From the NCBI RefSeq assembly GCF_009728935.1, contig NZ_CP034235.1, positions 962,501-1,026,500 of the forward strand: a stretch of DNA of 64,000 bases. Direction: 5' to 3'. Position numbers and translations under genes: made by a program. Source of the DNA: Paenibacillus psychroresistens. GTDB taxonomy: Bacteria > Bacillota > Bacilli > Paenibacillales > NBRC-103111. Below are positions 47,274 through 51,636 of the stretch, piece by piece. How positions within the stretch are numbered: position 1 is the first letter of the stretch; each line of letters opens with the position of its first letter. The notes beneath the pieces were generated by a model. It was given only the letters and a program-made list of their open reading frames with translations. It did not search any database and was not told where the DNA came from.

Positions 47274-47405
47274 GTTAATATAGGACTCCTTTAAAGTGGC
47301 TCTTAGGTAAGCGTTGCTAGTAAAATACTTTCCTTAACATATTTTAATAGTATAAAGGAGAATTGTGAAGGAAATATGAAGAATTAATCGAAAGTAAGTA
47401 AAAAT

Positions 47406-47430
47406 ACACCTGATTTATCAGATCAGGTGC
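47406..47430 (-). terminator. Terminator at the end of the Ro60 unit
   Basis: On the minus strand CACCTGAT pairs with ATCAGGTG around CTGATAA, followed by TATTTTT. It lies about 5 bases after the Ro60 stop and closes the whole minus-strand RNA locus. Confidence 0.85.
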
Positions 47431-47434
47431 ATTC

Positions 47435-48925
47435 TCAATCAAATTCAGTTGCTTTAATGGAGTCAACCATTCCCGCATAACCTTGTGTCATATTAGCGAT
47501 ATATTGCAGAATGGTATCACTCCAGCCATAAATATAATAAGTGTTTGGATCTTGTGGAGGGACCATGACGCTGCGGTATGGAGCAATATCGATAATAAAA
47601 GCTATTACTTCACGATTCACCGCTTTGCGATAGCGAGCTAGCTCGCTGTAGAAGTGGCTGCCACTGTTTTGCTGCTCATCGGTGATTATGATAATGTTAT
47701 CAACCTTGCGTTTTCTAGCTATCAGCTCTTTGATTGGTGCTCCGGTATCCGTCCCACCTCCTGCTTTGATTTGTGACGCCTGTGTTAAAATACTGTCATA
47801 CAAGGAAGGCTTGGCATCGATAACTTCCGTATTGAATAACCAGAACAAGCCATGTCCACGTGTCTTTTTATACAAGGCATAAGCAAACACCGAACCTATT
47901 TCCAACAAGTCACCTTGCATCGACCCTGAGATATCGAGAAAAATGGCTGTTTTGCCTTCGACCGCAGGTACATTTCTAAACGTTATGTCGACAGCCTCTC
48001 TAAGTGCGTCCTTTATCACAGGAGCGTTCACATGGTGAAAGGCATTAACAAACCGAAAAGGTAGAATTTTTGCTTTTTGCAAGGCGATTTGGTCGGTCAA
48101 TCTTGCTGCGATGTAATCTTGATTGCCTTCCAAGACACCTGCGCGATCCAATGCATTCAAGTGGCGCAAGAGAGCAAATGTTGGCATTTGATAGAGAATT
48201 GCTTCCCATACCGCTTTGGACGGTTGAATTACACCAGTTACCACTTCATATGTGAGCTTGCCTGCTGTGATCCAATGTATACGTTCGCTATCGGTTTCGG
48301 CGGATTTCAGCTTTTCCATCGCTTGAATCTGCAGAATTAAGCTAAGATCAGCCTCTTTGTTCAAAAGATAACGAAACAGTGCTTCCTGTGTAGGATCCTT
48401 CGCGATTGGATGGGCTGTAGAAATGACGTCTGCGAGATTGAAGCCGCGTCCGCGCCCATTATATTTCATCGCCCAATATTCAGAAACCTCTCTTAGAAAA
48501 AGCTTAACCGCTCGTTTGATTGCCCGACCGCCTTGACCTCGCCCCATGCTTTCCAATATCGTCATGAAGTCAAAAAGATCAGAAGGAATTCGAATGACCT
48601 TGCTGAATATTTCTGCGAAAAGCTCAGGACGTACGCTGGACAGCTTAGCTAATCCGTAAATGGGCTGAATTCGCATATAGCCTTCATTTCGAGCATAGAC
48701 AATGGCTTTTGCAGCGAAGTTTGGATCCTTTTTTAGCATTTGGTCATGGATTTCATTTGCCTCCATCAAAAGCTGCGTTTGATCCGCATAAAAAGTATTT
48801 GCTAGCGTATTTGTCATTAGTGTTTGTACATACTGCTCTTCCAACGTGCGTTCATAAGCGGGAAAGCTCTCGCGGTTACGAAAGGTTGGAAGAATTGTTG
48901 CGAAAATTTTAGTTGCTTTACTCAT
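47435..48925 (-). CDS. rsr: Ro60/TROVE-domain RNA-binding protein
   Basis: 496 residues from the ATG at 48925, with GGAGG 8 bases before it. The TROVE domain, a ring of HEAT-like repeats, spans about 10-325 (FPAYERTLEEQYVQ at the start, FHHVNAPVIKDALREAVDITF at the end). A von Willebrand A domain follows, with the MIDAS motif DISGSM (about 337) and GGGTDTGAPIKE and IIIITDEQQ. Ro60 proteins bind Y RNAs on the outer ring and misfolded RNAs in the central cavity, and in Deinococcus they work with polynucleotide phosphorylase. Two Y-RNA-like RNAs lie directly upstream on the same strand. Confidence 0.93.
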   Translation of the reverse strand: MSKATKIFATILPTFRNRESFPAYERTLEEQYVQTLMTNTLANTFYADQTQLLMEANEIHDQMLKKDPNFAAKAIVYARNEGYMRIQPIYGLAKLSSVRPELFAEIFSKVIRIPSDLFDFMTILESMGRGQGGRAIKRAVKLFLREVSEYWAMKYNGRGRGFNLADVISTAHPIAKDPTQEALFRYLLNKEADLSLILQIQAMEKLKSAETDSERIHWITAGKLTYEVVTGVIQPSKAVWEAILYQMPTFALLRHLNALDRAGVLEGNQDYIAARLTDQIALQKAKILPFRFVNAFHHVNAPVIKDALREAVDITFRNVPAVEGKTAIFLDISGSMQGDLLEIGSVFAYALYKKTRGHGLFWLFNTEVIDAKPSLYDSILTQASQIKAGGGTDTGAPIKELIARKRKVDNIIIITDEQQNSGSHFYSELARYRKAVNREVIAFIIDIAPYRSVMVPPQDPNTYYIYGWSDTILQYIANMTQGYAGMVDSIKATEFD

Positions 48926-48949
48926 TATTAGGACCTCCATAGAATAATA

Positions 48950-49050
48950 CGTGAGGAAGGACAGAGAAGGTATAACTCCTTCAATAGAAGGAATTGGCAG
49001 GATAGTAGTCTGCAGTCTTAGGACGAAGTAACCCTCTCTAGCGCCTCACG
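48950..49050 (-). ncRNA. Y-RNA-like RNA (no tRNA module), next to Ro60
   Basis: About 101 bases on the minus strand. A perfect lower helix pairs CGTGAGG at the 5' end with CCTCACG at the 3' end. After an internal loop, GAGAGGGT pairs with ACCTTCTC (one G-T). The 5' strand then carries GTTACTTCG, shared with two other RNAs in this locus. The apical part holds a CCTTC-TATT-GAAGG hairpin. Conserved bulged terminal stems are what Ro60 binds in Y RNAs. The 3' end is 24 bases before the Ro60 ATG, so it lies in the Ro60 leader. Confidence 0.75.
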
Positions 49051-49078
49051 TTGTTGCTTTATTAATATTGCGAAGAAA

Positions 49079-49195
49079 GTAACAGAAAAGGTACAAATTA
49101 AGTGCCTTTACCATTTGGCGACTTCACCTTGCGATGAAGGCCGGAATCGAACCGACAGTCACTTAAGCCCGAAGTAACCCTTTCAAACGCCTCAC
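49079..49195 (-). ncRNA. YrlA-like Y RNA with permuted tRNA module
   Basis: About 117 bases, minus strand. Order: 5' motif GTGAGGCG...GGGTTACTTCG; TTAAGTG; a T-arm (GTCGG, TTCGATT, CCGGC); CTTCATC; loop GCAA; GGTGAAG; a D-arm (GCC...TGG...GGC); CACTTAA; then CCTTTTC. CTTCATC pairs with GGTGAAG to form an acceptor-like stem closed by a GNRA tetraloop, and TTAAGTG pairs with CACTTAA as an anticodon-like stem joined to the Ro60-type helix (GAAAGGG with CCTTTTC). A tRNA cut at the anticodon and closed at the acceptor end is the known architecture of YrlA Y RNAs. The outermost pairing is weak. Confidence 0.75.
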
Positions 49196-49211
49196 AAATT
49201 ATAAAAATGTG

Positions 49212-49778
49212 TTAAACAATTTGATATTGTTTTTTGGAGTATCGGTTAGCATAAGCCGAGGCTACATAGGAATCTGGTTTGATGACGGGGACCATGCCAA
49301 GTGATTCGACTCGGAAAACCATTTCAGCAACGAAAAGTGCTGTTTTATTGCGCATTAGGTTGGAGCCTGCATCAATGTGAATGTAGGATTCGAACGAACC
49401 ACCTTTATAGACATAAGGTAAAATCAGATCCTCCATTTCCCTGCGCTTTTCCTCACTAAAATACATAGCAATTTCTTCGCTTAAAGTGGTTTCTGTAGAT
49501 AGCTTTTCTTTGATGGAAACTAGCTGTCTAGGAATGATAACCTGTCGGTAGCAAGCCCATGCTCCTTTACCGGGTCTTTGAATAACAACACCTGTAATGA
49601 ACTGGGTATATCCACGATGGACTTGGCAATCTGTGCCAATGATGAATTTGTACTCTGAGTTTGGGTCTTGTTTAATGAAGCGAATGATTCGGCCATGGAC
49701 CTGCTCCAGATTTAGATTCATCTCTGTGGTATTGCGGAACTCCAACCTTTGGCTTAGGCTGTTTGTTTTCTTTTTCAT
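49212..49778 (-). CDS. YkuK-family (DUF458) RNase H-like protein
   Basis: 188 residues from the ATG at 49778 (AGGTGA upstream); an ATG at 49808 adds 10 residues and cannot be excluded. A longer frame upstream crosses tRNA-Asn and is rejected. The first strand with its acidic residue is KFIIGTDCQVHRG, and later strands include SYIHIDAGSN and MVPVIKPDSYVASAYANRYS, the DUF458 pattern of an RNase H-like fold. Its activity is not established. Lying between the tRNA array and two Y RNAs, an RNA-processing role is a fair guess. Confidence 0.85.
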   Translation of the reverse strand: MKKKTNSLSQRLEFRNTTEMNLNLEQVHGRIIRFIKQDPNSEYKFIIGTDCQVHRGYTQFITGVVIQRPGKGAWACYRQVIIPRQLVSIKEKLSTETTLSEEIAMYFSEEKRREMEDLILPYVYKGGSFESYIHIDAGSNLMRNKTALFVAEMVFRVESLGMVPVIKPDSYVASAYANRYSKKQYQIV

Positions 49779-49832
49779 AATTTTCACCTGTACCCTAACG
49801 GTAGGCATTGTTCCTTTCTTGTATGTAGTTGG

Positions 49833-49907
49833 CAGGGAAAGAGGGACTCGAACCCCCACGATACACTGATTAACAGTCAGCTGCTTTACCAATTAAGCTA
49901 CATCCCT
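49833..49907 (-). tRNA. tRNA-Asn (GTT), divergent, CCA not complete
   Basis: All arms can be drawn: D-stem GCTT/AAGC, anticodon loop CTGTTAA giving GTT, T-loop TTCGAGT. The acceptor stem AGGGATG/TTTCCCT has a T-T mismatch and a G-T pair and starts with A, unlike the usual Bacillus tRNA-Asn. The discriminator G is followed by CCAA only if offset, so CCA is not cleanly encoded. Confidence 0.75.
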
Positions 49908-49918
49908 ATATTCAATTT

Positions 49919-49995
49919 TGGTCGGAACAGCAGGGTTCGAACCTGCGGCCTCATACGCCCAAAGTATGCGCTCTCCCAAGCTGAGCTATATCCCG
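49919..49995 (-). tRNA. tRNA-Pro (TGG), CCA encoded
   Basis: The cloverleaf is complete: C-G first pair, anticodon stem CATAC/GTATG, loop TTTGGGC giving TGG, T-arm GCAGG/CCTGC, then A-CCA. The acceptor stem has two G-T pairs. It is related to but clearly different from housekeeping tRNA-Pro. Confidence 0.85.
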
Positions 49996-50001
49996 ATTTG
50001 G

Positions 50002-50078
50002 AGGATAGGAACGGATTCCCACCGTTGAATCTGTCAGCCACCTAGTGCAGCAGCTTCTTTGACCTTGTATACCCATCC
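50002..50078 (-). ncRNA. Degenerate tRNA-like element
   Basis: GGATGGG pairs with CCTATCC as an acceptor stem (one G-T), and AACGG pairs with CCGTT as a T-stem, but the T-loop reads TGGGAAT instead of TTCGAAT. The D-arm does not pair. The anticodon arm (AGCTGC with GTGGCT) leaves an 8-base loop, TGCACTAG, so no anticodon can be assigned with confidence. It sits in register with the array, between tRNA-Lys and tRNA-Pro. Confidence 0.55.
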
Positions 50079-50084
50079 ATATTG

Positions 50085-50160
50085 TGGTGATGCTGAAGGG
50101 ACTTGAACCCCTAACCTACCGATTAAAAGTCGGTTGCTCTGCCAATTGAGCTACAGCGTC
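50085..50160 (-). tRNA. tRNA-Lys (TTT), CCA encoded
   Basis: D-arm GCTC/GAGC, anticodon stem ACCGA/TCGGT, loop CTTTTAA giving TTT, T-stem AGGGG/CCCTT, then A-CCA. The acceptor stem GACGCTG/CAGCATC has one C-A mismatch at position 3-70. The anticodon loop is normal, while stems differ from the usual tRNA-Lys. Confidence 0.85.
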
Positions 50161-50164
50161 ATAG

Positions 50165-50240
50165 TGGGGAGATCGGAGAGGATCGAACTCTCAATAAACG
50201 GTTCACAGCCGTTCGCGGTAACCACTTCGCCACGTTCTCC
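50165..50240 (-). tRNA. tRNA-His (GTG), CCA encoded
   Basis: The sequence fits tRNA-His including an extra 5' G (position -1) opposite C73. Anticodon stem AACGG/CCGTT with loop CTGTGAA gives GTG. T-stem GAGAG/CTCTC is perfect and CCA is encoded. One A-A mismatch lies in the acceptor stem. Confidence 0.85.
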
Positions 50241-50248
50241 ATGATTTT

Positions 50249-50324
50249 TGGTGGTCAGAGACGGGATCGAACCGCCGCTGCATGGTACTTCAAACCATCG
50301 CTCTACCTACTGAGCTATCTGACC
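50249..50324 (-). tRNA. tRNA-Phe (GAA), CCA encoded
   Basis: A perfect acceptor stem GGTCAGA/TCTGACC, D-stem GCTC/GAGC, anticodon stem ATGGT/ACCAT with loop TTGAAGT giving GAA, T-stem GGCGG/CCGTC with one G-T, and A-CCA. Confidence 0.88.
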
Positions 50325-50328
50325 TAAT

Positions 50329-50404
50329 TGGTGACGCATGTGGGATTCGAACTGGGCGTTACACGAGTGAAAGTCGTGTGGCTTAGCCGCTTGCCGAATG
50401 CGTC
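50329..50404 (-). tRNA. tRNA-Glu (TTC) with an unpaired T-stem
   Basis: A perfect acceptor stem GACGCAT/ATGCGTC, anticodon stem CACGA/TCGTG, loop CTTTCAC giving TTC, and A-CCA. The T-stem is broken: CCCAG faces CCCAC around a normal TTCGAAT loop, where GTGGG would be expected. It is the first tRNA in the direction of transcription. Confidence 0.75.
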
Positions 50405-50415
50405 AAAATTGCAAC

Positions 50416-50444
50416 AAAAAAGACTGCTAGTTGTACCAGCAGCC
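50416..50444 (-). terminator. Terminator hairpin C (conserved GGCTGCTGG type)
   Basis: On the minus strand GGCTGCTGG pairs with CTAGCAGTC (G-T pairs included) around TACAA, followed by TTTTTT. It lies only 12 bases upstream of tRNA-Glu with no promoter between, so the tRNAs must be reached by read-through or antitermination. Confidence 0.8.
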
Positions 50445-50501
50445 TCAACTTACCTATATGTATAATAATCTGAAGTCCAAATTGGACACAGTACTATAAC
50501 A

Positions 50502-50633
50502 TTATGCAGAACATCCTTCCTTGGGTGGAAAGCGGCGCTGACTTAGGTATGTAAAACTGCGAATACGATAAAAATTCTTCTCGGATTGCTTTTGGGATTT
50601 CTCGTTTTGTTTAAAATGGGATGGATTGTGCAT
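50502..50633 (-). CDS. Very small protein, 43 residues (sORF C)
   Basis: A strong GGAGG lies 8 bases before the ATG. The product is basic and hydrophilic (MHNPSHFKQNEKSQKQSEKN, then FYRIRSFTYLSQRRFPPKEG). There is no membrane segment and I know no homologue. The motif FTYL followed by a basic and proline-rich stretch has a faint echo in sORF A. A terminator of the same type as its two neighbours follows. Confidence 0.5.
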   Translation of the reverse strand: MHNPSHFKQNEKSQKQSEKNFYRIRSFTYLSQRRFPPKEGCSA

Positions 50634-50706
50634 TTTCAAAACCTCCACTAAATTTAGTTTGAAATGAAAAAAGACTACCCGCTCTCCCCAGGATCTTTTC
50701 TTGGTA

Positions 50707-50740
50707 AAAAGAAAAGACCACTAGATGAGCACCAGTAGCC
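50707..50740 (-). terminator. Terminator hairpin B (same type)
   Basis: GGCTACTGG pairs with CTAGTGGTC around TGCTCAT, followed by TTTTCTTTTT. The stem is nearly the same as hairpin C, including the positions of the G-T pairs. A second short hairpin (CTTTTCTT with AAGAAAAG) overlaps the T-run on its far side. Confidence 0.75.
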
Positions 50741-50794
50741 TAACAACATATTCTATAGGAATCACATTCACATGTTAAATGATTCGGATATTCA

Positions 50795-50950
50795 TTATAA
50801 AATGTCGGAAAGCGACATTTCACAATAAACGAAAGGGTTGTTAAAGCTAGGAATATTTAGTTGGAAATAATTGTTTAATTGCGGATATTGCAGATGCTTC
50901 TCATTTAGATATTGTTCATGTTTAAATGATTTTCCAATAAAGTTTTCCAT
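50795..50950 (-). CDS. Very small protein, 51 residues (sORF B)
   Basis: The ATG at 50950 follows AGGTGAG and a good promoter 33 bases further up. The product (MENFIGKSFKHEQYLNEKHL, then QYPQLNNYFQLNIPSFNNPF) is rich in Asn, Gln and aromatic residues, with no membrane helix. An open frame 14 codons longer exists but has a poorer ribosome site. Function unknown. Confidence 0.55.
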   Translation of the reverse strand: MENFIGKSFKHEQYLNEKHLQYPQLNNYFQLNIPSFNNPFVYCEMSLSDIL

Positions 50951-50982
50951 GCTTCTCACCTGCTTTCGTTTTGATAAACCGT

Positions 50983-51011
50983 ATCTTATCATAGAAATTT
51001 ATTCCTGTAAA
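50983..51011 (-). promoter_or_regulatory. Promoter of sORF B
   Basis: On the minus strand TTTACA (51011-51006) and TAAGAT (50988-50983) are 17 bases apart. Confidence 0.6.
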
Positions 51012-51039
51012 TACATTATTTTCTTTTATTTTTCATAAT

Positions 51040-51066
51040 AAAAGAGCTACTGAGATTCAGCAGCCC
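51040..51066 (-). terminator. Terminator hairpin A (same type)
   Basis: GGGCTGCTGA pairs with TCAGTAGCTC around ATC, with G-T pairs at the same places as in hairpins B and C, followed by TTTTATTAT. Confidence 0.75.
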
Positions 51067-51118
51067 CGTAAATTCTTTATGATGTTTAGTGCTCATCTGG
51101 CCAAATGCCGAGATGAAA

Positions 51119-51241
51119 CTAACAACTGTTATCCTTCTTATGGAGAATGGATGACAAAGAAAAAGGGTGCTGTGTATTAAATTCTTGTTTAAACGTTTGT
51201 TTATTATTCGGTAAATGAAGATAGGTCAAGTGATTAAACAT
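51119..51241 (-). CDS. Very small protein, 40 residues (sORF A)
   Basis: AAGGAG lies 10-11 bases before the ATG at 51241. The product is MFNHLTYLHLPNNKQTFKQE followed by FNTQHPFSLSSILHKKDNSC. It is hydrophilic with no known motif. TTGACA at 51314-51309 may be its -35 box. It ends 53 bases before hairpin A. The spacing from ribosome site to start is long, so this is the least certain of the three. Confidence 0.4.
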   Translation of the reverse strand: MFNHLTYLHLPNNKQTFKQEFNTQHPFSLSSILHKKDNSC

Positions 51242-51325
51242 GATTCATACACTCCTTTCTGCTCTGCCTCTTAATTTTGTTCAAAGCTTAACTCATGGAC
51301 AAGGAAGCTGTCAATTCTTTTATTT

Positions 51326-51458
51326 CAAAGTGAGGAAAGAGGGCGGATAGGTACGCACTGCTCTACCAGCTGAGCTACTCCACCTAAGTGGAGGTTGGAT
51401 TCGAACCAACGACAGGTCGATTAAAAGTCGAAGTAACTCATCCATACGCATCACTTTG
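51326..51458 (-). ncRNA. YrlA-like Y RNA with a permuted tRNA-Lys-like module
   Basis: 133 bases, minus strand. The ends form a perfect helix, CAAAGTGA with TCACTTTG. The 5' strand has GTGATGCG then GTTACTTCG, as in the two RNAs near Ro60, and GGAT pairs with ATCC further in. Then come an anticodon-like hairpin (TCGA, CTTTTAA, TCGA), a T-arm (GTTGG, TTCGAAT, CCAAC), CTCCAC, TTAG, GTGGAG, and a perfect D-arm (GCTC, AGCTGGTA, GAGC). So 3' tRNA half precedes 5' half, and the acceptor stem is closed by a 4-base loop. Read in tRNA order it makes a near-complete tRNA-Lys. Confidence 0.8.
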
Positions 51459-51479
51459 TCAACAAAAACTATAAGCCTA

Positions 51480-51509
51480 GTTATAATATGGATTACCAAG
51501 TGTTGTCAA
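51480..51509 (-). promoter_or_regulatory. Strong promoter of the Y RNA/tRNA locus
   Basis: On the minus strand TTGACA (51509-51504) and TATAAC (51485-51480) are 18 bases apart. The expected start near 51473 is about 15 bases before the 5' end of the Y RNA. Confidence 0.8.
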
Positions 51510-51636
51510 TACAATTTTTAATTAGCTCGATTAGGTTTCTTGTTCTGCTAACTAGAAACACAATCGAATTCTTTGGAATTGCTTAATTGTGATAAACAAT
51601 AATGATGATTATAATAAAATTTTATTATGAAAAGCA

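Follow-up and report, generated by a model that had tools for sequence, protein, structure and literature searches.

A predicted operon of Paenibacillus psychroresistens places extra tRNA genes behind small open reading frames (ORFs) whose codons match those tRNAs. We consider it probable that these leader ORFs are transcription attenuators through which a shortage of particular tRNAs, for example under anticodon-nuclease attack, switches on replacement tRNAs together with the proteins YkuK and Ro60. The locus occupies the minus strand between 51.5 and 47.4 kb of a stretch of 64,000 nucleotides (RefSeq assembly GCF_009728935.1, contig NZ_CP034235.1, positions 962,501 to 1,026,500), here called the window. 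In the direction of transcription it comprises a possible promoter, a YrlA-like Y RNA, three successive leader ORFs each with a terminator, tRNA-Glu, -Phe, -His and -Lys, a non-canonical tRNA-like RNA, tRNA-Pro and -Asn, and then YkuK, Y RNAs 2 and 3, Ro60 and a final terminator (Table 1). Judged by sequence, both this architecture and the codon match are present. An earlier note on this DNA had put Y RNAs, tiny ORFs with terminators, tRNAs, YkuK and Ro60 on one strand, which we confirmed; the replacement role that it suggested for the divergent tRNAs gains support from the match between leader codons and array, a feature absent from that note.

Leader ORFs in front of the tRNA arrays

Same-strand tRNA arrays upstream of YkuK were found in 14 of 52 and 21 of 60 fetched loci (35 of 112), and in 36 loci with the window. 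A further array, in L042, precedes Ro60 with no YkuK found in the stretch and brings the total to 37. The last tRNA lies within about 0.65 kb of YkuK in the window and in 34 of the 35 other arrays, L116 being the exception at 2.2 kb. Three groups of arrays are near-identical (e.g. L092, L093, L121). Ordinary large tRNA clusters (L096, L098, L099, L164, L175) were excluded, as were tRNA clusters lying downstream or on the opposite strand (L076, L182, L183, L185). The underlying YkuK matches came from 93 of 296 genomes in an order sample, 76 of 394 in a second family and 32 of 299 in a class sample; none of the nine loci fetched from the class sample (L177-L185) has an array of this kind.

Ro60 follows YkuK in 8 of the 36 loci (L135, L137, L140, L142, L144, L145, L033, which is the same as L130 and has Ro60 about 2.5 kb off, and the window), and further cases are possible because the second-batch stretches stop 1.5 kb downstream. 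Seen from the Ro60 side, relatives were present in 33 of 104 genomes of the family, and among the 40 loci whose layout was drawn, some of them the same contig twice, arrays occur only in the window, in Cohnella phaseoli (L033) and in L042. The earlier note had made its reading depend on tRNA clusters, YkuK and Ro60 occurring together in other genomes; the combination does recur, so the reading is not refuted on that count. As the arrays were searched through YkuK or Ro60, any with neither gene would have been missed.

Leaders were scanned for as ORFs with an ATG start, a ribosome site, 25-95 codons and a terminator within 330 nt. At least one was found automatically in 34 of the 37 arrays, and leader-like ORFs are nonetheless visible in the three that failed (L089, L115, L158). 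A control scan of 1.3 kb upstream returned a leader in 16 of the 71 YkuK loci that lack an array and in 3 of the 66 far control stretches; it covered less DNA than the array scan, which ran from 1.3 kb before the first tRNA through the last tRNA. Two of the 16 appear to be reduced versions of the system, namely L094, with a leader and a tRNA-like RNA and no tRNA, and L110, with leaders only. Purifying selection acts on the leaders (pN/pS 0.30-0.55 across seven groups). The distance from their stop codon to the terminator is 36-106 nt for most units; for class 2 it is about 150-174 nt. Small ORFs that carry regulatory codons ahead of a terminator are a mark of leader-peptide attenuators, and at sequence level the units described here have it.

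Leader codons match the tRNAs of the array

Codon content was compared for 35 leaders from 24 representative loci (near-identical loci removed; 22 with leaders), with 109 small ORFs bearing a ribosome-binding site in the same DNA as controls and long ORFs as a second background. Residue enrichment over the small ORFs tracked the frequency of the corresponding tRNAs in the arrays (Spearman 0.81, p 1.6e-5); when these control ORFs were themselves set against long ORFs, the value was -0.30. The mean share of residues cognate to array tRNAs was 35.6% in leaders, 24.2% in small ORFs and 26.5% in long ORFs. The leaders are enriched in His, Gln, Phe and Asn and depleted in Ala, Val, Thr and Gly.

Furthermore, each leader matches the tRNA set of its own locus. 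When tRNA sets were shuffled among loci, the observed specificity of 0.191 compared with 0.043 ± 0.041 in permutations (0 of 5000), and within hand-set leader classes the count was 1 of 5000. Four ORFs (L130, L127, L152, L153) had been dropped by eye from the main codon test; with these restored, the counts were 0 of 5000 for free shuffling and 7 of 5000 within classes. The match is concentrated early in the leader, the cognate share by thirds being 0.42, 0.39 and 0.25. In the first 65% of the leaders, 11 of 12 residues, Ile being the exception, are commoner where the array has the matching tRNA, as for Phe (10.3 vs 5.4%), Pro (6.6 vs 3.8%) and Trp (4.1 vs 2.1%), with little difference for Glu and His. 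Among Pro codons, CCA and CCG, which Pro-UGG is expected to read, make up 81% in leaders and 60% in long ORFs, and NAN codons account for 607 of 1308 leader codons (46%) compared with 13,532 of 44,537 (30%) in long ORFs.

Predicted pairing of the leader's coding end with the terminator

In the leader units, the 3' coding end of the ORF can pair with sequence at the 5' arm of the terminator. Aligned helix cells were paired in 87.5% of cases in class 1 (11 units; slid controls at most 54.3%) and in 96.2% in class 2 (11 units; slid controls at most 51.6%), figures that lean towards the helices since these were set by eye on the same sequences. The covariation score of class 2 lay above all 500 of 500 shuffles. 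A duplex test unit by unit over 57 units, one additional unit having no region for it, gave a mean z of -1.28, with 17 units at p ≤ 0.05 and 14 at p ≤ 0.01. Once transcription has just reached the 5' arm of the terminator, the predicted mean probability of the antiterminator is 0.82 in class 1 and 0.75 in class 2, and in partial transcripts of the window units 12-16 antiterminator pairs are expected each. When the coding region was masked, as if covered by a ribosome, the T-run arm of class 2 went from a mean of 5.0 pairs with the 5' arm to 8.7, with a clear switch in five of the 11 units (L118, L150, L152, L154, L158).

The array tRNAs and a tRNA-like RNA

The earlier note counted seven tRNA or tRNA-like genes in the window. 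Six are tRNAs found by both ARAGORN and Rfam between 50404 and 49830 (Glu-UUC, Phe-GAA, His-GUG, Lys-UUU, Pro-UGG, Asn-GUU), complete by tRNA recognition and with CCA encoded; the seventh (50078-49999) is a tRNA-like RNA of a separate kind, present in other arrays as well. Divergence of the tRNAs, likewise claimed before, was borne out, with 67-76% identity to the nearest host tRNA that has the same anticodon (the comparison covered 61 of the 67 host tRNAs outside the array). Across representative loci, 100 of 157 array tRNAs have U35, compared with 18 of 61 host tRNAs (p 8e-6), and the commonest are Glu-UUC (28), His-GUG (20) and Gln-UUG (20). Among anticodon nucleases, PrrC cleaves tRNA-Lys, and colicin E5 the tRNAs for Tyr, His, Asn and Asp; that the arrays include such targets is a lead and not a test.

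The tRNA-like RNA has no ARAGORN match and no Rfam family match. Nine sequences share an acceptor stem, a 7-bp central hairpin, a T-like arm and a CCA end, with 95.9% of cells paired (slid controls at most 56.7%) and covariation above 500 of 500 shuffles. It departs from the canonical cloverleaf (RF00005), as three helices are supported and a D arm was not seen. The window copy, itself a building member of covariance model R1, scores 67.3 bits with it and has a single-sequence fold z of -0.5. The model matched 15 of 90 YkuK loci and 3 of 36 Ro60 loci. One YkuK match (L119, E 0.005) was discounted for overlapping a tRNA-Ile gene; the remaining 14 are seven building members and seven new ones (L146, L116, L151, L143, L167, L095 and, weakly, L091 at E 0.0097), the new ones sitting in gaps between tRNA genes. 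A viral origin was considered because a pattern derived from this RNA occurs in three viral contigs; none has a tRNA and their surroundings are dissimilar by eye, so these were taken as chance.

In eight loci (L118, L119, L128, L129, L149, L150, L115, L167) a perfect palindrome, GAACNNNNGTTC, stands between attenuator and array, 20-206 nt before the first tRNA, with one-mismatch versions at other loci. Exact copies number nine inside array regions (74,520 nt) and five outside (299,159 nt), and the window has none. This palindrome resembles an SOS box.

Proposed mechanism and alternatives

The response to tRNA shortage that we infer would run as follows. While the needed charged tRNAs are available, the ribosome would traverse the leader and occupy the antiterminator segment, and the terminator would halt transcription. 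If a needed tRNA were missing, the ribosome would stall, chiefly over the initial two thirds of the leader, which have the highest density of matching codons; the antiterminator segment, left free, would pair with the emerging 5' arm of the terminator and RNA polymerase would continue into the array. The divergent tRNAs, with their pre-encoded CCA, would refill the tRNA pool, and the RNase H-like YkuK and Ro60 with its Y RNAs may process or clear damaged tRNA. A search of the whole genome gave no PF01139 match for the ligase RtcB, so replacement fits rather than repair. The U35-rich arrays and a weakly PrrC-like protein encoded in the genome also count in favour of this reading. More broadly, we lean towards regarding these loci as a bacterial tRNA insurance. 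Leader peptides would test specific tRNAs codon by codon, and attenuation would free locus-specific spare tRNAs, a CCA-ended tRNA-like RNA, the YkuK nuclease and a Ro60 ribonucleoprotein, restoring translation after anticodon-nuclease attack, be it in phage defence or by rival bacteria, with leader codon set and tRNA set co-evolving.

A number of results weigh against replacement through attenuation. On the genomic side, an array is lacking at most Ro60 loci in the family, and the link of arrays to YkuK and Ro60 stems partly from a search that started at these genes. Against the long-ORF background the codon correlation falls to 0.45 (p 0.049), and Glu, Asp, Ile and Leu are not enriched; the share of Leu TTR codons does not differ between loci with Leu-UAA and those with no Leu tRNA (p 0.27). 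On the structural side, the class 1 covariation score was reached by 132 of 500 shuffles, two-sided pair changes are few (2 pairs per alignment), and the duplex test is modest, with several units at positive z and the window passing in its first unit only. The full class 1 RNA prefers the terminator at equilibrium whether free (0.93) or masked (0.99). So do the window terminators (0.89, 0.91 and 0.96 free; 0.96, 0.98 and 0.91 masked), the third of which changes in the wrong direction on masking (0.96 to 0.91). In class 2, the hairpin scored first (0.57 to 0.93) has no T-run, and 6 of 11 units hardly switch. With a clear equilibrium switch in five class 2 units only, the switch would elsewhere have to be kinetic.

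The same switch would also be tripped by amino-acid starvation, since an attenuator cannot distinguish a missing from an uncharged tRNA. The leaders might then sense charging in general and the array serve to control growth instead of responding to tRNA damage. The many residue types per leader fit this, as does the Trp found in many leaders whose array has no tRNA-Trp. We nevertheless consider this reading unlikely, as tRNAs and predicted RNA-care proteins, rather than biosynthesis genes, lie downstream, the leaders are specific for the set of their own locus, and an extra tRNA is no cure for lack of an amino acid.

It is quite improbable that the tRNAs and the tRNA-like RNA are non-translating decoys that soak up anticodon nucleases or are passed to Ro60 and YkuK. 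The divergent tRNA bodies and the presence of a non-canonical tRNA-like RNA in the arrays would suit decoys, and competitive nuclease inhibition by the tRNA-like part of YrlA is raised as a possibility in PMC7790460. Yet the window tRNAs are recognised as complete with an encoded CCA, and a match between leader codons and array is what translating spares predict. Decoys that resist nucleases also find no support in most of the window tRNAs, as by eye the anticodon loops of Glu, His, Lys and Asn look conventional; in Phe and Pro, the bases 3' of the anticodon are unusual. That the small ORFs encode functional peptides and the arrays are mobile-element remnants, as purifying selection (pooled pN/pS 0.45) and repeat units around two copies of tRNA-His in the array of L113 might suggest, is very improbable given a terminator soon after the stop codon whose 5' arm pairs with the coding end, and YkuK relatives that gave two matches in plasmids and none in phages or viral contigs.

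The loci share features with several known systems. Ribosome-controlled attenuators in front of amino-acid operons, trp and his among them, likewise combine a leader ORF with regulatory codons, a terminator and a competing helix; here, unlike there, tRNAs and predicted RNA-care proteins lie downstream, each leader has several residue types and the antiterminator segment belongs to the 3' coding end of the leader itself. T-box riboswitches, too, sense the state of tRNA ahead of a terminator. A T-box reading was rejected here, as there is no T-box family among the Rfam matches, and sensing would instead go via translation.

The Salmonella rsr-yrlBA-rtcBA operon, described in PMC7790460 as responding to tRNA damage, also has Ro60 and a Y RNA (YrlA). 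According to the same paper RtcR senses tRNA fragments there and RtcB and RtcA repair, whereas here the genome is without RtcB and has codon-matched leader ORFs, extra tRNAs and YkuK instead. Arrays of tRNA genes are also found in phages, where PMC10264068 and PMC11555353 present them as thought or shown to offset depletion by tRNA-targeting defences, through anticodon-loop changes or strong expression. The arrays described here differ from these in lying in bacterial genomes, behind leader ORFs, and in having mostly conventional loops in the window.

The type of switch, attenuation, is known already; the system that it would control was not found in print, and none of the titles and abstracts listed from open-licence PMC papers dealt with codon-matched leaders before tRNA arrays. 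If the reading is true, the cell gauges the integrity of its tRNA pool by translating test peptides and replaces the tRNAs that are missing, a bacterial counterpart to the spare tRNAs of phages. It would also give YkuK proteins a role, link Ro60 to tRNA where the genome has no RtcB, add a class of tRNA-like RNA, and let leader codons reveal which tRNAs are attacked in nature.

Layout of the window

The earlier note set the locus between a promoter and a terminator. Both ends are present (TTGACA/TATAAC at 51509-51480 and the final terminator at 47437-47399); the promoter is unlisted by the scan. Since the region contains three terminators inside it, as well as a possible though weak promoter at 51011-50983, it is not a plain single transcript. 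The promoter scan gave 16 hits, not clearly beyond the 12.0 ± 2.8 of shuffles, and the terminator scan 8 compared with 4.3 ± 1.8.

Table 1. Features of the locus, numbered from the first nucleotide of the window.
Feature	Position	Strand	Basis and remarks
Possible promoter of the array transcript, TTGACA-18-TATAAC	51480..51509	-	Sequence reading; absent from promoter scan list (second hexamer ends in C)
Y RNA 1, YrlA-like, tRNA-like modules	51339..51452	-	Rfam YrlA match 51357-51417; fold z -0.9; ends by eye
Leader ORF 1, 40 aa, MFNHLTYLHLPNNKQTFKQEFNTQHPFSLSSILHKKDNSC	51119..51241	-	ORF/leader scan
Leader 1 coding segment; predicted partner, terminator 1 5' arm 51080-51057	51155..51172	-	Duplex z -2.5, p 0.02; 14.7 expected pairs, partial transcript
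Terminator 1	51043..51067	-	Terminator scan
Possible leader 2 promoter, TTTACA-17-TAAGAT with TG	50983..51011	-	Scan, 9/12 matches, weak
Leader ORF 2, 51 aa, MENFIGKSFKHEQYLNEKHLQYPQLNNYFQLNIPSFNNPFVYCEMSLSDIL	50795..50950	-	ORF/leader scan
Leader 2 coding segment CTAGCTTTAACAAC; predicted partner GTTGTTAGGCTAC at 50747-50735	50837..50853	-	Duplex z -0.3, p 0.32, alone not significant; 11.8 expected pairs, partial transcript
Terminator 2; second T-run GGGTAGTCTTTTTT near 50670	50715..50741	-	Terminator scan
Leader ORF 3, 43 aa, MHNPSHFKQNEKSQKQSEKNFYRIRSFTYLSQRRFPPKEGCSA	50502..50633	-	ORF/leader scan
Leader 3 coding segment; predicted partner, terminator 3 5' arm 50457-50438	50543..50561	-	Duplex z -0.7, p 0.21, alone not significant; 15.6 expected pairs, partial transcript
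Terminator 3, immediately 5' of the array	50420..50446	-	Terminator scan
tRNA-Glu (UUC)	50329..50404	-	ARAGORN, Rfam; lowest-scoring of six (36 bits)
tRNA-Phe (GAA)	50249..50324	-	ARAGORN, Rfam
tRNA-His (GUG)	50165..50239	-	ARAGORN, Rfam
tRNA-Lys (UUU)	50085..50160	-	ARAGORN, Rfam
Non-canonical tRNA-like RNA: acceptor stem, long central hairpin, T-like arm, D arm absent, encoded CCA	49999..50078	-	Covariation; covariance model R1
tRNA-Pro (UGG)	49919..49995	-	ARAGORN, Rfam
tRNA-Asn (GUU)	49830..49907	-	ARAGORN, Rfam
YkuK, RNase H-like, PF04308	49212..49778	-	Pfam
Y RNA 2, GGGTTACTTCG and tRNA-like module	49070..49195	-	Fold z -1.7; ends by eye
Y RNA 3, GGGTTACTTCG, long closed stem	48950..49050	-	Fold z -5.4; ends by eye
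Ro60/Rsr relative, TROVE and vWA	47435..48925	-	Pfam, NCBIfam
Final terminator	47399..47437	-	Terminator scan

Ro60, Y RNAs, YkuK and genome background

The window Ro60 has the TROVE domain (PF05731, 65.3 bits against a cut-off of 23, 7.9e-18) and scores 27.6 bits with vWA_Ro60 (cut-off 27.7, E 3e-6). It stays below the equivalog cut-off of the NCBIfam Rsr model (81.4 against 900 bits, E 5e-23) and is, by its profile matches, a divergent Rsr relative. A Y RNA motif lies within 1.5 kb upstream of Ro60 in 31 of 34 Ro60 loci, with two copies elsewhere in the same DNA. Three Y-RNA-like RNAs had been proposed for the window. The first matches Rfam YrlA (RF02553) at 41.7 bits (E 6e-6), under the gathering score of 69, and the fold z-scores given in Table 1 mean that folding by itself backs only the third. 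In L033 an additional, structured-looking sequence, flanked by tRNA-Trp and YkuK and some 3270-3100 nt ahead of Ro60, has no Rfam match at E 0.1.

YkuK matches its Pfam family (YkuK/RNaseH_like) at 4.5e-43, a family predicted to be RNase H-like (PMC3985635), and a sequence search matched it to no solved structure. In a YkuK tree of 52 rows (first batch, L033 and the window) the array-linked genes are dispersed across the long-form clade. The YkuK frame is broken in the array loci L121 and L122. About 200-50 nt before the closest YkuK relative (L075) there are, by eye, apparent degenerate remains of a tRNA and a tRNA-like RNA, where the tRNA-like model has no match.

The host genome is a single contig of 8.1 Mb with one TROVE gene and 73 tRNA matches, including the six of the array. 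Outside the window it encodes a full-length AAA_13 protein (PF13166, 4e-173; L207, G000:C1:425414-427516), for which NCBIfam gave no informative name and which matches, among PADLOC models, the candidate system PDC-S06 at 1.5e-249 and, weakly, PrrC at 1.9e-14.

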